A DNA stretch of 21,570 nt. Origin: Clostridia bacterium (GTDB lineage: Bacteria > UBA6262 > WVXT01 > JAUXBS01). A program made the position numbers and the translations under genes. The stretch spans positions 1-21,570 of the forward strand of contig JAUXDE010000016.1 of NCBI GenBank assembly GCA_030618495.1, in the 5' to 3' direction. This document shows, piece after piece, positions 8,613 to 21,570 of this stretch. Within the stretch, counting starts at the first letter, position 1, and the number at the start of each line of letters is the position of its first letter. The notes beneath the pieces are model-generated. The model was given only the letters and a program-made list of their open reading frames with translations. It did no database searches and had not been told where the DNA came from.

Positions 8613-9476
8613 TTATTTTATTTCATTATGTACATTTTCCCATATACTCTTTATTTGTTCCGTAACCTGCCCGTCTGAATATTCTATTATGTTCTTCTTG
8701 TTCACCAATGCTTTTATTACTATAGGGTCAAAGGATATTTTTCCCGCAAAGAAAATATTACTATCCCGGCAATATAACTCTATTTCCTCGCTTATTTGTG
8801 TATTCAAGTCATATTTATTAACTACAACAAGTGTCTTTATGTTAAAATGACGGGTTAATTCCACCACCCTTATCATGTCATGCTTACCGGAAAGAGTAGG
8901 TTCGGTAACAATTAAGACAGCATCGGCTCCGGTGATTGAAGAAATAACCGGACATCCTATTCCCGGAGGCCCATCAATTATAATCAGGTTACGTTTTTCC
9001 TTTTCGGCTGTTTCCACCGCAACCTTTCTTACCGTAGCAACCAATTTTCCTGAGTTTTCTTCGGCAATTCCCAGTTTTGCATGAATAAGCGGACCATATT
9101 TTGTTTCTGAATAAAACCATTCTCCGGAATTATTATCCTGCATCTTTATCGCCATTTCCGGGCACACATGAAAACATATACCACAACCTTCGCAGGAAAC
9201 AGGATCTACTGTAAAATCATCTTCGGATATCGCATTAAATCTACATGCAGCGATACAAACTCCACAACGATCGCACTTTGCCCTGTTAATCACTGCGGTT
9301 TTTCCACTTCTAAATTCATTCCTTTTTAAAACAGTAGGATTGAGCAACAGGTATAGATCAGCCGCATCCACATCGCAGTCCGCCATAACTTTATTCTTAG
9401 CCAATTTCGCAAACGCAGCGGAAATTACTGTTTTACCCGTGCCGCCCTTACCGCTTATAACAACAAGTTGTTTCAT
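8613..9476 (-). CDS. MinD-superfamily ATPase with inserted 2[4Fe-4S] ferredoxin domain
   Basis: 287 residues, full length for the COG1149-type family. The deviant Walker A GKGGTGKT is at 9-16, the second switch is DADLYLLL-like at DCDVDAADLY (33-42), and IIDGPPGIGCPV marks Walker B. Between them sits a ferredoxin insert with cysteines 68, 71, 74, 78 and 95, 98, 101, 105. Such proteins couple ATP hydrolysis to Fe-S or metal-cofactor assembly on a partner protein; the substrate is unknown here. ATG 9476 overlaps the stop of the split NifU-like gene (ATGA) and has GAGGG upstream, so ATPase and scaffold were translationally coupled. It is a paralogue of the gene at 11232-12101 and may form a heterodimer with it (inference). 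Confidence 0.9.
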   Translation of the reverse strand: MKQLVVISGKGGTGKTVISAAFAKLAKNKVMADCDVDAADLYLLLNPTVLKRNEFRSGKTAVINRAKCDRCGVCIAACRFNAISEDDFTVDPVSCEGCGICFHVCPEMAIKMQDNNSGEWFYSETKYGPLIHAKLGIAEENSGKLVATVRKVAVETAEKEKRNLIIIDGPPGIGCPVISSITGADAVLIVTEPTLSGKHDMIRVVELTRHFNIKTLVVVNKYDLNTQISEEIELYCRDSNIFFAGKISFDPIVIKALVNKKNIIEYSDGQVTEQIKSIWENVHNEIK

Positions 9477-10135
9477 TTTTCCCTCTTTATCAGGTAATTC
9501 CCAAGCGCCTTATACAACGTAATTACAGCCAGAATAGCGCAATGGTAATTTCCTCCAAGTATTCTTTTTAACCTGTCTATAATGTTTAGTGTGGTGAATC
9601 TAACATATCTTGACATTTGCTGGAAGCATTTTGCTTCAGCGTCAAGGAACGAAGAGTGAGAATACTGTACGTATGTGAACGATAAGTGACGTCGACGATG
9701 AACAAAAGACGACAGCCCTACGGGAAGGGCCCTCTTTGAGCAGCTTCTTCGTCTTTCCTCCTAACCATATTCTCGATATACCTTCGTCGTCTTTCCTTGA
9801 ACCCATCTCAAAGCCTGCCCTTCAAATGTCAAGATATGTTAGATTCACCACACTAACGGTACTATTTTTAGCGCTTCATCTATTTTACGCCCGTTTGCAA
9901 GTTCAGTTACAACCGAACCGCAGGCAAGTATTATACCGCAGCCATTTGAATAAAAAAGTATTTTCGAGATACTATCGTTTTCCGCTATGAAGTATATTTC
10001 CATCTCCTCTCCGCATTGCCCTTTCACTACGGCAGAGCCATCCGGGTCATTCATTCTTCCAAAATTAAGCGGATTGGTTATATGCTTTGTTATATTCTCC
10101 GAAATCTCTGTTTTATTATTATTGTTATTATCCAT
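9473..10135 (-). pseudogene. IscU/NifU-like Fe-S scaffold gene split by a MITE-like insertion
   Basis: From ATG 10135 the frame encodes NPLNFGRMNDPDGSAVVKG, Cys41 in GQCGEEM, and Cys66 and Cys72 in NGCGIILACGS, then runs into the inserted element and stops after PLVW. Beyond the element the missing tail continues: NIIDRLKRILGGNYHCAILA and on to IKREK, ending at TGA 9475-9473. Deleting 9587-9853 plus one TA copy rejoins the frame as KIVPLNIIDRLK and gives 131 residues with the third ligand Cys (residue 110) restored. NifU/IscU N-domain proteins hold nascent Fe-S clusters on three Cys; the usual CGD Asp is Glu here. The truncated protein lacks Cys110 and is probably inactive. Confidence 0.85.
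9587..9855. mobile_element. MITE-like element with 34-base perfect inverted repeats and TA duplication
   Basis: Arms 9586-9619 and 9823-9856 are perfect reverse complements (TTAGTGTGGTGAATCTAAC and onward). Taking the flanking TA (9587-9588 and 9854-9855) as target duplication, the element is 265 bases, 9589-9853. The core of about 200 bases encodes no transposase; it holds a GGGCTGTCG-like hairpin region (CCCTACGGGAAGGGC) and two copies of CGTCTTTCCT (9750-9759, 9788-9797). TA targets and GTG-starting ends suit mobilisation by an IS630/Tc1-type transposase (inference). It splits the NifU-like gene; excision to one TA restores that frame exactly, which strongly supports these boundaries. Confidence 0.85.
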
Positions 10136-10191
10136 TTAAGCTGTTCCTTCCACCTGACAACACAAACCGTATCCTCAAAACTATAGGAATT

Positions 10192-11229
10192 TCATGTTAC
10201 AGGCTCCTTGTTACTTCTAACAGGCAGTGTTTCCTCGCCTAAATAAGCGCTGAAATTACCCATGCTCATTTTTATGCCTTTATGATTACCGGAAACAAGG
10301 TACTGCCTCTCCAAATCGATACTATTTATATATTTCTCATTCGAACAATAACCTGCTATTAAACTAATCCCTTTTTTTGTTAAAACAAAAACAGGGATTG
10401 CCGCTGAAAGCTGCAGTATTGCTTTTTCCCCTATTATTTTCCTTGTTTCTTCCGATGCGCAACTCCATACAATGTCAGCATATTTTCTTATTTCCTGTAT
10501 TTTTGTTTTAGTCACGCCGGTATTACACACTATCAAAGAAGTAACCGATACATTATATTTCTCTTCTATTTCTTTTATTTTGTCCATGCCCTCCACTGTA
10601 TAACCATTAATAGTTACGGCTATATTCCTGTACCCGCATTCAGCGGCTTTCCTCAAACCTTCATATTGATTTATTTCCGCTGTTTCCGGAAAAACAACAC
10701 AACAACGTTTTTCTCTAAGTCTTTTGATTACTCCGTTAATAGGGGAAGTCAGGAAAAGACCGTTCATCCTGGAACCGATTCCCTGGATTACTTCGGGGCT
10801 GTCCGTAATCACAGTCCCCGCGCCGTCGCAAACGACCACGGCCGAATCAATGATATTTTTATTCATAGCGTACATCATCATCTCCGAGGCTCCGTAAGGG
10901 ATGGCTATATCTTTCCTGGACAGCTCTCTGTTTTCCGTAAAAAAACCATACCTGGATATTTTTTCTTCTATTGTTCCCTTTATCACTTCTCTTAAATTGA
11001 CAGCATTTTTTCCTGCATGCCTTATACTGCCATACAAAATACCGGCGAGGGGACAATACTTAAGGGAAGGATCTGTTACTTTAATAACTTTCCCTTCTGA
11101 TACAACCACGAAAGAAGAAAAGAACCTTGTAACATGCAAATCCTGATGTGTTTTCTTCTCCACTCCGATTTGTTTTAGTATCTTTTTTACGGTCATTTCA
11201 CCTTCCGCCATTATATTCCCGAAAAACAC
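10192..11229 (-). CDS. DUF2099 / methanogenesis-marker-8-like protein
   Basis: About 345 residues from GTG 11229, which follows the upstream stop by two bases; ATG 11196 (MTVKKILKQIG), with GGAAGG four bases upstream, is an equally good start and gives 334 residues. Visible landmarks are KYCPLAGILYG, IPYGASEMMMYAM, VVVCDGAGTVIT, VIQGIGSRMNGLFLTSPI, CCVVFPETAEINQYEGLRKA and GYRNIAVTINGY. I recognise this pattern as DUF2099, first named as a methanogen marker but also found in anaerobic bacteria; its biochemical function is not established to my knowledge. It lies between two ferredoxin-MinD ATPase genes, which suggests that it serves or is served by them. No signal peptide or membrane segment is seen. 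Confidence 0.65.
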   Translation of the reverse strand: MFFGNIMAEGEMTVKKILKQIGVEKKTHQDLHVTRFFSSFVVVSEGKVIKVTDPSLKYCPLAGILYGSIRHAGKNAVNLREVIKGTIEEKISRYGFFTENRELSRKDIAIPYGASEMMMYAMNKNIIDSAVVVCDGAGTVITDSPEVIQGIGSRMNGLFLTSPINGVIKRLREKRCCVVFPETAEINQYEGLRKAAECGYRNIAVTINGYTVEGMDKIKEIEEKYNVSVTSLIVCNTGVTKTKIQEIRKYADIVWSCASEETRKIIGEKAILQLSAAIPVFVLTKKGISLIAGYCSNEKYINSIDLERQYLVSGNHKGIKMSMGNFSAYLGEETLPVRSNKEPVT

Positions 11230-11231
11230 TT

Positions 11232-12101
11232 TTACTTCTTTATTCGCTTAATATCCGCAACTCTCACACTTATTTCATTAAATAATTTTCTAAATTCAGC
11301 CTTATATTCCGGTTGTGATTCAACAATAGAAATTCCTCTTGAGTAACTCTCTGCAATTTTTCTTGAAAATGGCAAAGACATTAAAACAGGGATATCCTCT
11401 TTCTTGCAGTATTTACTAACTTCACCGTCCCCCATATCCGACCGGTTTATTATTACCCCAAAAGGAATTCTTAATATTCTCAACACTTCAACCGCAAGTA
11501 CCAGGTCATTCAATCCAAAAGGGGTAGGTTCTGTTACAAGAATACTGAAATCACTCCCCTTTACAGCTTCAATAACGGGGCAGGATGTTCCCGGCGGAGC
11601 ATCAATAATAACTATTTTTTCTTTTACAATACATTCTTTAACCGCTCTTATTACCGGGGGAGCCATTACTTCTCCGACATTCAACTTCCCATGAATAAAT
11701 TCAATGCCTGAGCCAGCCCCGGGAACCCTTCCTTTTTCTACAACCCCTACCGGCTTATTTATTTCTCTTATTGCCTTCTCGGGACACAGGAGCGTACATC
11801 CGCCGCACCCGTGGCAAAGCTCCGGAAAAACAAGTACTTTTTTGTTTACGACTGCAATTGCATTATAAGCACATATCTCCTGGCATTTCCCGCAATAATT
11901 ACATTTACTCTCATCCACTTCAGGAACGGGGATATATACCGGATGACTCTCCGCCAATTCGGGCTTAAGAAAAATATGGGCATTGGGCTCCTCAACATCA
12001 CAGTCAAGAAACTGAACATTATTATCCAGCGATAATGCCAGGCTGGTTGATATTATGGTTTTCCCGGTACCGCCCTTACCGCTTGCAATCGATATAATCA
12101 T
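11232..12101 (-). CDS. MinD-superfamily ATPase with inserted 2[4Fe-4S] ferredoxin domain (second copy)
   Basis: 289 residues with Walker A GKGGTGKT at 8-15, FLDCDVEEPN at 31-40, IIDAPPGTSCPVIE as Walker B, and a ferredoxin insert with cysteines 67, 70, 73, 77 and 96, 99, 102, 106. It belongs to the same family as 8613-9476 but is clearly divergent, so it is not a recent tandem duplication. Pairs of such ATPases are known next to NifX-like proteins in anaerobes (for example the orange-protein loci of Desulfovibrio), where they form a complex. ATG 12101 overlaps the methyltransferase stop (ATGA), with AGAGGATAA upstream. The likely role is ATP-driven delivery or assembly of an Fe-S or metal centre (inference). 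Confidence 0.9.
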   Translation of the reverse strand: MIISIASGKGGTGKTIISTSLALSLDNNVQFLDCDVEEPNAHIFLKPELAESHPVYIPVPEVDESKCNYCGKCQEICAYNAIAVVNKKVLVFPELCHGCGGCTLLCPEKAIREINKPVGVVEKGRVPGAGSGIEFIHGKLNVGEVMAPPVIRAVKECIVKEKIVIIDAPPGTSCPVIEAVKGSDFSILVTEPTPFGLNDLVLAVEVLRILRIPFGVIINRSDMGDGEVSKYCKKEDIPVLMSLPFSRKIAESYSRGISIVESQPEYKAEFRKLFNEISVRVADIKRIKK

Positions 12102-12743: not shown

Positions 12744-13457
12744 TTATTGTGATTTAACCGTATTTAAACCCGCAAGTGATTTGAAGGTGGATTTTCTTCC
12801 ATCCAATTTCAGCGACCTGGGCTTGCTGAACCTGGCATAATTTTTCGGCTCCTGGTATTGACTCAAGCAATCAAGTCTTCCTATGGACTTTAGTCTTTCA
12901 TATATTAGCATCCAGCCGCAATCCTGCTCTGAATCAACCTCACATTTACCATCCTTTGAACCTCCGCAGGAACCGTTTAAAAGACCTTTAGAACATAGTG
13001 TAAGAGGACATAAACCTCCGGTAATATCTACAATACATTCACCGCATAGAGAACAATATTCAGTAATGAACTCATCGGTAACCGTCTCACCCCCGAATAT
13101 CGTATCACATCCCGGATGAACAATTCCACCGGCAGTAGCATCTATTACTGTATGTATCCCCTGCCCGCAGGCAAGTATTAGAAATGAATCAGCCGATTCT
13201 GTTTCTTTTTTATGGTCAATATTTATCATCTGCTTAGCTAAAGAAAGCTTGCACAGTGATTTTCCACTTTCCGTGGCTGCATATCCCGTCACTTCTACCC
13301 CATTCTTTTCCAACCGGACTTTCATGGCCTTACACTCACTTTCCCCACCCGAACGGCACTTCTCAGCGCAATTACCGCATCCAACCACAAATACTTTTTC
13401 ACCTGTTCTTAAACAACCGAGAATATCTTTCATGTTTTTCTGAATAGTTGCATGCAT
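12744..13457 (-). CDS. metV: MetV-type methylene-THF reductase partner subunit, copy 1
   Basis: 237 residues, Cys-rich. The N-terminus has VVGCGNCAEKCRSGG and GYAATESGKSLCKL; the middle has LACGQGIHTVIDAT and GCDTIFGGETVTDEFI; the C-terminus has CSLCGECI, GGLCPLTLCSKGLLNGSCGG and DGKCEV. This matches the MTHFR C-terminal-domain (zinc/Fe-S) family, called MetV in acetogens, where it binds MetF in methylene-tetrahydrofolate reductase. It is highly similar, by eye roughly three quarters identical, to the copy at 19283-20011. Here MetF does not follow: a methyltransferase and the ATPase module do, with a metF remnant 4 kb further on. AAGGAG lies before ATG 13457. It may still pair with the intact MetF. 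Confidence 0.85.
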   Translation of the reverse strand: MHATIQKNMKDILGCLRTGEKVFVVGCGNCAEKCRSGGESECKAMKVRLEKNGVEVTGYAATESGKSLCKLSLAKQMINIDHKKETESADSFLILACGQGIHTVIDATAGGIVHPGCDTIFGGETVTDEFITEYCSLCGECIVDITGGLCPLTLCSKGLLNGSCGGSKDGKCEVDSEQDCGWMLIYERLKSIGRLDCLSQYQEPKNYARFSKPRSLKLDGRKSTFKSLAGLNTVKSQ

Positions 13458-18404: not shown

Positions 18405-19286
18405 TTATCCAATTTCAGCCTGTTTTAAAATCTCAGGAACAATATCATCCCAGCCTAAAGACATTATGTGAACACCCTGGCACATGGGTTTTATCTCGCG
18501 AATAATACGAGCTGAGATTTCTACAGCTTTCTTTTTGCGGTCATCCTTCTTCGTTTCTTCCATTTCTTTGATTATCCCATCAGGAACAAAAACTCCCGCT
18601 ACATTTTCGTTCATGTACTTTGCCATTCCCGCGGATTTTAATACAACAATTCCTGCCAATACAGGAACTTTAAAGTTTGCCACCTTATTCATAAATATCT
18701 CATAATTCTTGGGCTCGTAAATAGCCTGTGACTGAAAAAACTTCGCTCCAGCATCTATCTTTTTCTCCATTTTTATTATCTGGAGTTCTACCGGTTCAAA
18801 CTCGGGAGTTACCACTGCACCACATAATAATTCCGGCTTGCCTTCGAGTTCATGCCCTGCTAAATCATACCCTTCATTCAATTTTGTCACTGCTTTAACC
18901 AACTGAACAGAATCAAGGTCAAATACGGGTTTTGATTCCGCATGATCTCCCAGTATTATATGGTCTCCTGTTATACATAATATGTTCTTAATCCCCAGCC
19001 TCCATGCGCTGATAATATCAGATTGCAAAGCTAACCTGTTACGGTCCCTGCAGGTTAACTGGAATACCGGCTCAATCCCTTCATCAGCAAGCAGGTGACA
19101 CACCGCCATGGAACCCAGCCTCATAACCGAACTTTGATTATCAGTAACATTTACCGCGCATACTTTATCTTTTAAATATTTTTTAGCTTCTTCCATCACC
19201 TTTCCGGTATCTGTTCCTTTTGGAGGAGCTATTTCACCTGTAACAATAAATTCTCCAGCGTTTAACGCTTCTTTCAACTTATTCAT
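18405..19286 (-). CDS. metF: Methylenetetrahydrofolate reductase
   Basis: 293 residues, the usual length for the MetF TIM barrel. It binds FAD and reduces 5,10-methylene-THF to 5-methyl-THF, the last folate step of the methyl branch of the Wood-Ljungdahl pathway and of methionine supply. Visible family marks are FIVTGEIAPPKGTD at the start, AVNVTDNQSSVMRLGS, QLTCRDRNRLALQSD, LCITGDHIILGDH, GAKFFQSQAIYEP and MCQGVHIMSLGWDDIVPEIL at the end. ATG 19286 overlaps the MetV stop (ATGA), with GGAGGAAGG upstream, so the two subunits are made together. A broken relative of its 3' third is at 8280-8527. No MetF-fused NADH module or RnfC2 gene is nearby, so the electron donor may be ferredoxin (inference). 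Confidence 0.93.
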   Translation of the reverse strand: MNKLKEALNAGEFIVTGEIAPPKGTDTGKVMEEAKKYLKDKVCAVNVTDNQSSVMRLGSMAVCHLLADEGIEPVFQLTCRDRNRLALQSDIISAWRLGIKNILCITGDHIILGDHAESKPVFDLDSVQLVKAVTKLNEGYDLAGHELEGKPELLCGAVVTPEFEPVELQIIKMEKKIDAGAKFFQSQAIYEPKNYEIFMNKVANFKVPVLAGIVVLKSAGMAKYMNENVAGVFVPDGIIKEMEETKKDDRKKKAVEISARIIREIKPMCQGVHIMSLGWDDIVPEILKQAEIG

Positions 19287-20011
19287 TTTCCTTCCTCCCG
19301 TATGGATGATATTATTCTTTTACCCGCCAGTGATTGAAACGTTGCCTTCCCACCATCTAGTTTTATATTACGCGGCCTGCTCCATTTAGCGTAATTTTTA
19401 GGCTCCCTGTACTGCTTTAAAGAATCGAGCTTACCAATACTTTTCAATCTGTCATAAATTAACTGCCATCCGCAGTCCTGTTCCTTATCAACTTCGCATT
19501 TACCATCCTTGGAACCGCCGCAGGGCCCATTCAAAAGACTCTTGGAACATAGTGTAACAGGACAGAGCCCCCCGGTATATTCCACAATACATTCCCCGCA
19601 TAATGAACAATATTCGGTAATAAAATCATCTGTTACAGTTTCACCACCGAAAATAGTATCACACCCGGCATGAATTAATTTACTTCCAGTTGCGTCCATT
19701 ACCGTATGTATCCCCTGTCCACAAGCTAAGACCAGGAAAGAATCTGCTACCCCTGTTTCTTTTTTATGTTTAACATTAAGCACTTCCTTTGTAAGAGCTA
19801 ATTTACAGAGACTTTTTCCGCTTTCCGTGGCTGCATATCCAGTAACTTTTACACCTTTCTCTTCTAAACGGACTTTCATCTCACTACATTCTTTTTCACC
19901 GCCTGAACGGCATTTTTCCGCGCAATTCCCGCATCCTATAACAAAAACTTTTTCTCCATCCTTCAAATGCTCAATAATTTCATCTAAAGGTTTCTGAATT
20001 GTTGCATGCAT
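19283..20011 (-). CDS. metV: MetV-type methylene-THF reductase partner subunit, copy 2
   Basis: 242 residues with the same Cys layout as the copy at 12744: VIGCGNCAEKCRSGG, GYAATESGKSLCKL, LACGQGIHTVMDAT, GCDTIFGGETVTDDFI, CSLCGECIVEYTGG and LCSKSLLNGPCGGSKDGKCE. It is directly coupled to metF, the classic metV-metF order of acetogens, so this is the functional pair. Compared with copy 1 it changes conservative positions and has a longer C-terminal tail (KRIISSIREEGK). A good AAAGGAGG-type site precedes ATG 20011. The Cys-rich C-terminus probably holds zinc and the N-terminus may hold an Fe-S cluster (family knowledge plus inference). Confidence 0.88.
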   Translation of the reverse strand: MHATIQKPLDEIIEHLKDGEKVFVIGCGNCAEKCRSGGEKECSEMKVRLEEKGVKVTGYAATESGKSLCKLALTKEVLNVKHKKETGVADSFLVLACGQGIHTVMDATGSKLIHAGCDTIFGGETVTDDFITEYCSLCGECIVEYTGGLCPVTLCSKSLLNGPCGGSKDGKCEVDKEQDCGWQLIYDRLKSIGKLDSLKQYREPKNYAKWSRPRNIKLDGGKATFQSLAGKRIISSIREEGK

Positions 20012-20507: not shown

Positions 20508-21570
20508 GTAACAGTTCAGGACTTTCTGGAGAAATCGGCTCATAAATTAAGAGAGGGTTTAAGGTGTACTTAGTCACTTTACCTCATTTCCCCCTGTTCC
20601 CAAATTATACCTCTTTCTTTTCTCCAATGTCAATCTTTTTAGTTCTGCTCTGCGCTTTAAGATTTCCTCCTTCCTGCCGGCATATACATCAGCCGGGCTC
20701 ACATTGTTAAGACTACTGTGCGGGGTATGGTTGTATTCCCATACCGCTTTCTTCAGAGCTTTCTGCAATTCATCCGGGGAACTGTAAACTATCAAGTTCA
20801 CGGTTTTGCTCTTAGTCGTCTTGTTGAACCTTTCTACCTTACCCTGTGTCTGAGGATGATACGGCCTGCCGAACCTGTGTTTTATCCCATGCACCCAGAG
20901 ATATTCAGATAATGTATCCCCCCTAAACCCGGGACCGTTGTCTGAAAGCAAAACCGGTGGAGGTTTAAGACTGTGCCCGAGCCTCTTTGCTTCTTCTATG
21001 GCTGATTCTATCGCATCACTGATGCTATACCCTGTTTCATCAAGCTTCAGTTCATCCGTGAGCACATACCGCGAATAATCATCTATTACCGGTATATACT
21101 TGTAATAGCCCCAGCTACGAATAAACATATTGGTGCCATCGCATTGCCACATCTCGTCGGACCTTGTTGTTTTCCTCTTGTATTCCTTTGCCGCCGGTAT
21201 TTCTTTCAGCGGCCGGGGCTCTATAAGGTTATACTTCTTCAGCAATCGGTAAACGGTCTTCTCCCCGACGGAGAAGCCCTTGTTGTCGGTTATATGCACC
21301 GCAATCAGCCGCGGCGTGAGTTCCGGGTGGTCCTTGGATACCTTGAGGATTGTCTCTTCTTCTTCAGGCAGTACCCTGTTCCACACTTTCCCCGGCGCCG
21401 TTGACCTTTTCTTCAAGCCAGATATTCCTTCCCTCTTATACGTCCCCCGCCAACCGTAATACGTTGACTCAGGTATACCAAGGGACACGAGAACGCTTCG
21501 TCTATTTTCGCCGAAAGCCTCTACTTTTTCTATGAGGTCCTTTATTTCTTTCGCCTTCATATGTATGTGC
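20508..21570 (-). mobile_element. Insertion sequence, IS481/IS3-like, cut by the right window edge
   Basis: An intact DDE transposase gene occupies most of it. The left boundary is tentative: TGTAACAGTTCAGG at 20508-20521 begins TG, as ends of this group do, and lies 66 bases outside the transposase stop. The opposite end would lie beyond 21570, so neither inverted repeats nor a target duplication can be checked. Confidence 0.5.
20574..21560 (-). CDS. DDE transposase, IS481/IS3-like
   Basis: 328 residues, complete. An N-terminal helix-turn-helix (GIPESTYYGWRGTYKREGIS, 29-48) and a second DNA-binding part (GFSVGEKTVYRLLKKYNLIE) precede the integrase core. The catalytic triad is Asp141 (WQCDGTN), Asp207 (LSDNGPGF) and Glu243 (QGKVERFN), with 35 residues between the second Asp and the Glu as in DD(35)E enzymes, followed by WEYNHTPHSSLNNVSPAD. 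A single frame is used, which is more like IS481 than the two-frame IS3 type. Nothing is broken, so it could be active. It is not the source of the remnants at 6565-7004, whose sequences differ. Confidence 0.92.
   Translation of the reverse strand: MKAKEIKDLIEKVEAFGENRRSVLVSLGIPESTYYGWRGTYKREGISGLKKRSTAPGKVWNRVLPEEEETILKVSKDHPELTPRLIAVHITDNKGFSVGEKTVYRLLKKYNLIEPRPLKEIPAAKEYKRKTTRSDEMWQCDGTNMFIRSWGYYKYIPVIDDYSRYVLTDELKLDETGYSISDAIESAIEEAKRLGHSLKPPPVLLSDNGPGFRGDTLSEYLWVHGIKHRFGRPYHPQTQGKVERFNKTTKSKTVNLIVYSSPDELQKALKKAVWEYNHTPHSSLNNVSPADVYAGRKEEILKRRAELKRLTLEKRKRYNLGTGGNEVK

Follow-up and report, generated by a model that had tools for sequence, protein, structure and literature searches.

What split the iron-sulfur scaffold gene in the middle of the window (the whole 21,570-nucleotide stretch of DNA analysed here), and does the cell still need it? 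An initial annotation, made from the sequence alone, had proposed that a MITE-like element with a TA target duplication divides an IscU/NifU-type gene. We consider it highly probable (about 0.93) that a non-autonomous, TA-duplicating MITE was moved in trans into the gene, after codon 94 of 131, and that its loss was tolerated. The features of the locus are collected in Table 1.

Table 1. Features of the split gene, the element and the neighbouring genes (positions in the window)
Feature	Position	Strand	Remarks
5' part of split NifU_N gene, 94 codons	9854..10135	-	first two ligand Cys (GQCGE, NGCGI)
Listed ORF as it stands, 96 aa	9845-10135	-	frame stops two codons into element
3' part of NifU_N gene, last 37 codons and stop TGA (9473-9475)	9473..9588	-	His-Cys ligand pair (GGNYHC)
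Possible 47-aa ORF	9473..9616	-	putative, from sequence; ATG inside the element's terminal repeat, reads into 3' part
MITE, non-coding, 265 bp	9589..9853	none	same length as copies on contigs C10, C11, C13, C25
TA target-site duplication, left copy	9587..9588	none	
TA target-site duplication, right copy	9854..9855	none	
Left arm of 34-nt inverted repeat	9586..9619	+	31-nt element end, TA and outer T
Right arm of 34-nt inverted repeat	9823..9856	-	complementary to left arm
MinD1, MinD/NBP35-like ATPase with inserted 2x[4Fe-4S] ferredoxin domain	8613..9476	-	downstream gene
DUF2099, methanogenesis marker 8 protein	10192..11229	-	upstream neighbour
MinD2, second MinD/NBP35-like ATPase with ferredoxin domain	11232..12101	-	
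IS481-like transposase (rve and HTH)	20574-21560	-	start within ~10 bases of contig end

The split gene and the inserted element

The minus strand read in place gives MDNN...KIVPL, then VW and a stop, with more stops further into the element, which enters the frame directly after KIVPL (codon 94). The encoded 96-residue ORF keeps two ligand cysteines. Because the part with the His-Cys pair is missing, its product is predicted to be non-functional and should not hold a cluster. When 267 bp (the element and one TA) were left out, the flanks joined as KIVPLNIIDRLKRILGGNYHC and gave a protein of 131 aa in which the cysteine of GGNYHC returned, as the initial annotation had stated. This joined protein matched Pfam NifU_N with E = 1.9e-20 over positions 3-124 of 127. 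Only the joined reading has a whole-length NifU_N domain with its Cys, Cys and His-Cys ligands; in its present state the gene is without the His-Cys part. The joined protein scored far below all equivalog cut-offs for IscU, NifU and SufU (80.8 vs 187.9 bits for NifU_clost) and is therefore a divergent paralogue.

A repeat search of the window found the two arms complementary at 34/34 positions with 203 nt between them, in agreement with the perfect 34-base repeats that had been annotated. Within the element alone the terminal inverted repeats match at 31/31 positions, and the number 34 includes the flanking TA and one outer base; the outermost bases at the site read T-TA-GTGTGG...CCACAC-TA-A. 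As a single strand the element folds at -58.3 kcal/mol (z = -9.2 vs shuffles). With 265 bp it is under the limit of about 600 bp for MITEs, and it contains in-frame stop codons and no transposase. No tRNAs were found in the window.

A multicopy element family

The window's own genome (G000) comprises 1.69 Mb in 179 contigs and is 98% complete; its element copies were read locus by locus. BLAST returned 61 matches to the element. A degenerate pattern of the terminal inverted repeat found 56 ends, 30 of which match it perfectly, spread over about 41 contigs, compared with 0 for the reversed control pattern, so the 34-base end is indeed present elsewhere in the genome, which holds about forty copies. 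Five copies are exactly 265 bp long and fall into two subfamilies, one made up of the window copy and its nearest relative on C13 (93.6% identical) and the other of the copies on C10, C11 and C25 (91.7-95.5% identical). The other paired ends enclose 117-533 bp. Of 51 ends, 30 have TA immediately on their outer side, against an expectation of 8% for each (binomial P ~1e-20). TA is absent on one side of several copies, which means old, damaged or trimmed ends.

Most other complete copies are apparently intergenic or at gene edges, for example those just before recA on C10 and before a dtd-like gene on C52, both genes being named on inspection by eye. Among the complete copies examined, the window's is the only one splitting a gene shown to be continuous in relatives. 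Several copies abut the 3' ends of genes (L168 at ~4149, L161 at ~1762 and L078 at ~1333), and there the stop codon is provided by the element's end or by TA and its first G. A search of 39 genomes outside the genus yielded no related sequence. In a genome of the same genus (G001), a contig of its own, C280 (73% identical to C53), has a copy close to its end, and no terminal inverted repeat is present on C53; judged from these contigs, the family appears to be present in both species at different sites.

The copies also bear on the idea that the element is an intron-like intervening sequence, or is skipped by the ribosome, with full-length scaffold still being made. The insert and the duplication together measure 267 nt, which is divisible by three and leaves the frame exact on both sides, and the hairpin is strong. 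We regard this reading as extremely improbable, since every insertion that duplicates its target leaves such an exact frame, the window gave no match to any Rfam family, introns among them, and the other complete copies lie at gene edges or between genes; several copies (117, 192, 231 and 533 bp) would not keep a frame.

The bacterial MITEs Correia/NEMIS of Neisseria, ERIC/IRU and RUP of pneumococcus, as reviewed in PMC2229807, are about 100-200 bp long with terminal repeats of 7-24 nt. They have terminal inverted repeats with 5'-TA-3' termini, form hairpins and occur in many copies, mostly intergenic and occasionally intragenic (PMC2229807). The element described here resembles Correia, ERIC and RUP in being short and multicopy, in its terminal inverted repeats, terminal TA and hairpin, and in lying mostly between genes and sometimes in them, but it is longer (265 bp) and so is its exact terminal repeat (31-34 nt). 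It represents an abundant TA-duplicating MITE family that is new, in a sparsely sampled uncultured bacterial lineage, of a kind already known. A literature search on MITEs in Omnitrophota found nothing relevant.

The initial annotation had suggested looking for an IS630/Tc1-type transposase with the same ends, and none was found over threshold in this genome or its congener. The IS630-type DDE_3 domain (PF13358) had no match in G000. Searches with NF033545 in G000 and G001 gave sub-threshold matches only, far below the cut-off, with the IS481-like ORF at the edge of the window scoring highest; neither DDE_Tnp_1 (PF01609) nor ISAzo13 (PF07592) had a match over threshold. For PF00665 (rve) there were two matches in G000, the same IS481-like ORF and one on C61. 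The IS481-like ORF was rejected as partner, because sequences near it differ from the element's end at 14 or more of 31 positions. Two stretches bounded by the terminal repeats were considered as autonomous elements and, on inspection by eye, rejected: that on C1 (533 bp) has no recognisable transposase, and that on C130 (1132 bp) has a weak-match 'arm' and an unrelated coiled-coil-like ORF. RUP has IS630-Spn1, whereas no IS630-type transposase was found for the present element. It shares the TA target duplication with IS630/Tc1/mariner elements, and this duplication would be the sole ground for filing it with the IS630-derived MITEs.

Because no transposase with these ends was found, we infer rather than observe transposition in trans. 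A member of this family, whose 31-nt repeats are perfect to near-perfect, inserted at a TA and duplicated it; in the proposed course, it would have been moved by a trans-acting transposase from a same-ended element now lost or unassembled. The partner has presumably been lost, has diverged beyond the models used, or is missing from the assembly; the last may apply because multicopy elements break assembly.

Intact relatives and the age of the insertion

An uninterrupted gene was sought in related genomes and found. G001 carries an orthologue of 135 aa without the element (C277:13049-13429) that is 65% identical, and the joined protein aligns gap-free across the join to this and 13 other uninterrupted relatives. 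The Cys, Cys and His-Cys ligand positions are kept in all 14, the empty sites being compared at the protein level. Solved NifU/IscU structures also align to the joined protein over nearly its full length. The gap-free alignment to intact relatives therefore fixes the boundaries of the insertion and makes the uninterrupted gene the ancestral form. A metallo-beta-lactamase-fold gene is found close to the split gene, and its homologue (64% identical) close to the G001 orthologue, but on C277 no MinD or DUF2099 gene adjoins the orthologue. Taken with the multicopy family, the intact orthologues and the gap-free alignment over the inferred empty site bear out a MITE-like element splitting the gene. 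Neither of the outcomes set against that reading, a split gene with no intact orthologue or a repeat occurring nowhere else, was found.

The exact repair of the frame had also been taken to fix both the boundaries and the recency of the insertion. The boundaries stand. The recency does not follow, because any target-duplicating insert, when left out together with its duplication, returns the old frame whatever its age, and the restored frame therefore does not date the event. What bears on age is that the arms are identical and that both gene halves are still open. Compared with the G001 orthologue, same, synonymous and non-synonymous codons number 14/8/14 in the 3' part and 37/22/27 in the 5' part, a test with little power because the two sequences had probably diverged for the most part before the element inserted. 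The ribosome-binding region of MinD1 also lies in the 3' half and would preserve some of its sequence in any case. Identical arms, open halves and unskewed codon changes would fit a young insertion, as weak evidence of little power. Copies shared between G000 and G001 (C105/C208 and C163/C47) were considered as ancient insertions and rejected, because their flanks are 99.6-99.9% identical over kilobases; these are therefore contigs of one species in two bins and are uninformative on age.

The same codon comparison can be read as a sign that the gene works in two pieces, a 96-residue N part and a 47-residue C part assembling into a scaffold, with the short ORF coupling the translation of MinD1. 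GGNYHC is preserved in a 3' part that remains open, the changes of this part relative to G001 are not skewed against those of the 5' part, the ATG within the element has the correct frame, and the start of MinD1 overlaps with the stop of the scaffold gene. However, reading the sequence directly, we saw no Shine-Dalgarno-like sequence before that ATG, and the stable hairpin of the element is located there; in addition, the codon test has little power and the MinD1 ribosome-binding region would itself preserve some of the 3' sequence. We therefore think a two-piece product very unlikely. If it were true, the MITE would have turned the protein into an Fe-S scaffold of two subunits and coupled its translation to that of the following gene.

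In the favored reading, a gene inactivated by a MITE, translation would stop two codons into the element and yield a 96-residue protein without the His-Cys part. The ATG of MinD1 and the stop of the scaffold gene overlap (AATGA), and translation of MinD1 may be weaker, as this stop would no longer be reached from the scaffold's own start. A restart from the ATG at 9616 could still carry translation over the 3' part.

A probable second scaffold and the MinD-linked paralogues

It had been suggested that a second scaffold substitutes for the broken one, and this holds. Contig C30 carries nifS and then an iscU beginning MPQYNEKVMEYFMNPRNVGEVP, followed by a GC-rich unrelated tail. In this locus (L077, G000:C30:4500-7503) the GC content jumps from 0.42 to 0.69 in mid-iscU from ~6965, a chimeric join at the contig end. 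The same nifS-iscU is found on G001:C192 at 98.9% identity with IscU complete, and the version that belongs to G001 itself, on C48, shares 79% identity; the best reading of C192 is therefore a misbinned contig of this species. Three contig pairs (L177/L159, L183/L081 and L073/L077), 98.9-99.9% identical over kilobases, are common to the two bins of this genus, and other contigs of the two bins are only 73-79% identical, which indicates cross-binning of one species. The gene content of these contigs makes it very likely that the organism has a normal nifS-linked housekeeping scaffold and that the split gene is an accessory paralogue. This would explain why the cell tolerates the loss.

The mixed bins also raise the question of whether the insertion is a minority allele or a choice of the assembler, with most cells carrying an uninterrupted gene. 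The assembly is fragmented, its contigs often end in the element, the same-genus bin has contigs 98.9-99.9% identical to this species, and C30 is chimeric, all pointing to a mixed assembly with errors. On the other hand, the sequences on the two sides come from a single gene and join at a clean TA duplication, an arrangement that misjoining at random would not create, and no uninterrupted version from this species was present in G000 or G001. We consider this explanation unlikely, if less so than a two-piece gene.

Contigs of named genomes scanned with the MinD1 protein gave 61 loci. Omnitrophota predominate, and KSB1, Aerophobetes, Elusimicrobia and others are represented as well. A good number of these loci have a NifU_N gene clustered with MinD1, MinD2 and often DUF2099 (e.g. 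L091, L095, L099, L111, L117). A conserved cluster of two ferredoxin-insert MinD/NBP35-like ATPases, DUF2099 and a NifU_N paralogue (window 8613-12101, L091, L092, L095 and L117) occurs in several uncultured bacterial lineages. The MinD-linked paralogues have an extra invariant cysteine six residues after the second ligand cysteine (GCxxxxxC), seen in window 9854-10135 (minus strand), L076, L091-L095, L099, L105, L108, L109, L111, L117 and L127. In the canonical IscU/NifU proteins of this survey the position is V, T, S or A; Cys is found there in three intermediate sequences as well (L040, L114, L129). Thus the paralogue shares with the NifU_N/IscU scaffolds (PF01592, TIGR03419, TIGR01999) the whole NifU_N profile and the Cys, Cys and His-Cys positions, but unlike them it adjoins MinD-like ATPases instead of nifS, has one more invariant Cys and scores far below the cut-offs. 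This extra cysteine is a more novel lead than the MITE.

Further along the window, two MetV-like (DUF5981) and MetF genes (12744-13457 and 18405-20011, minus strand) share a gene run with two NifX-like proteins and an Mrp ATPase. The ORP/MrpORP gene clusters of Desulfovibrio encode paired P-loop ATPases with two [4Fe-4S] motifs, Orp3/Orp4 (PMC6345978). The present neighbourhood is similar in its paired [4Fe-4S] P-loop ATPases, Mrp/NBP35 ATPase and NifX-like (Nitro_FeMo-Co) proteins (PMC6345978), but adds the NifU_N paralogue, the methanogenesis-marker-8 protein and the MetV/MetF genes. Its Mrp aligns to the 365-position MrpORP model at positions 1-255 only and, with 353.5, stays below the cut-off of 450.

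The locus is a clear case of an ordinary process and not a new kind of system. It documents one clean interruption of a gene by a MITE, and the element helps to explain where many contigs of this genome end, which is of use in assembly work. It also sets the MinD-linked NifU_N paralogue apart from the housekeeping scaffold and suggests that at least one lineage can do without the paralogue.
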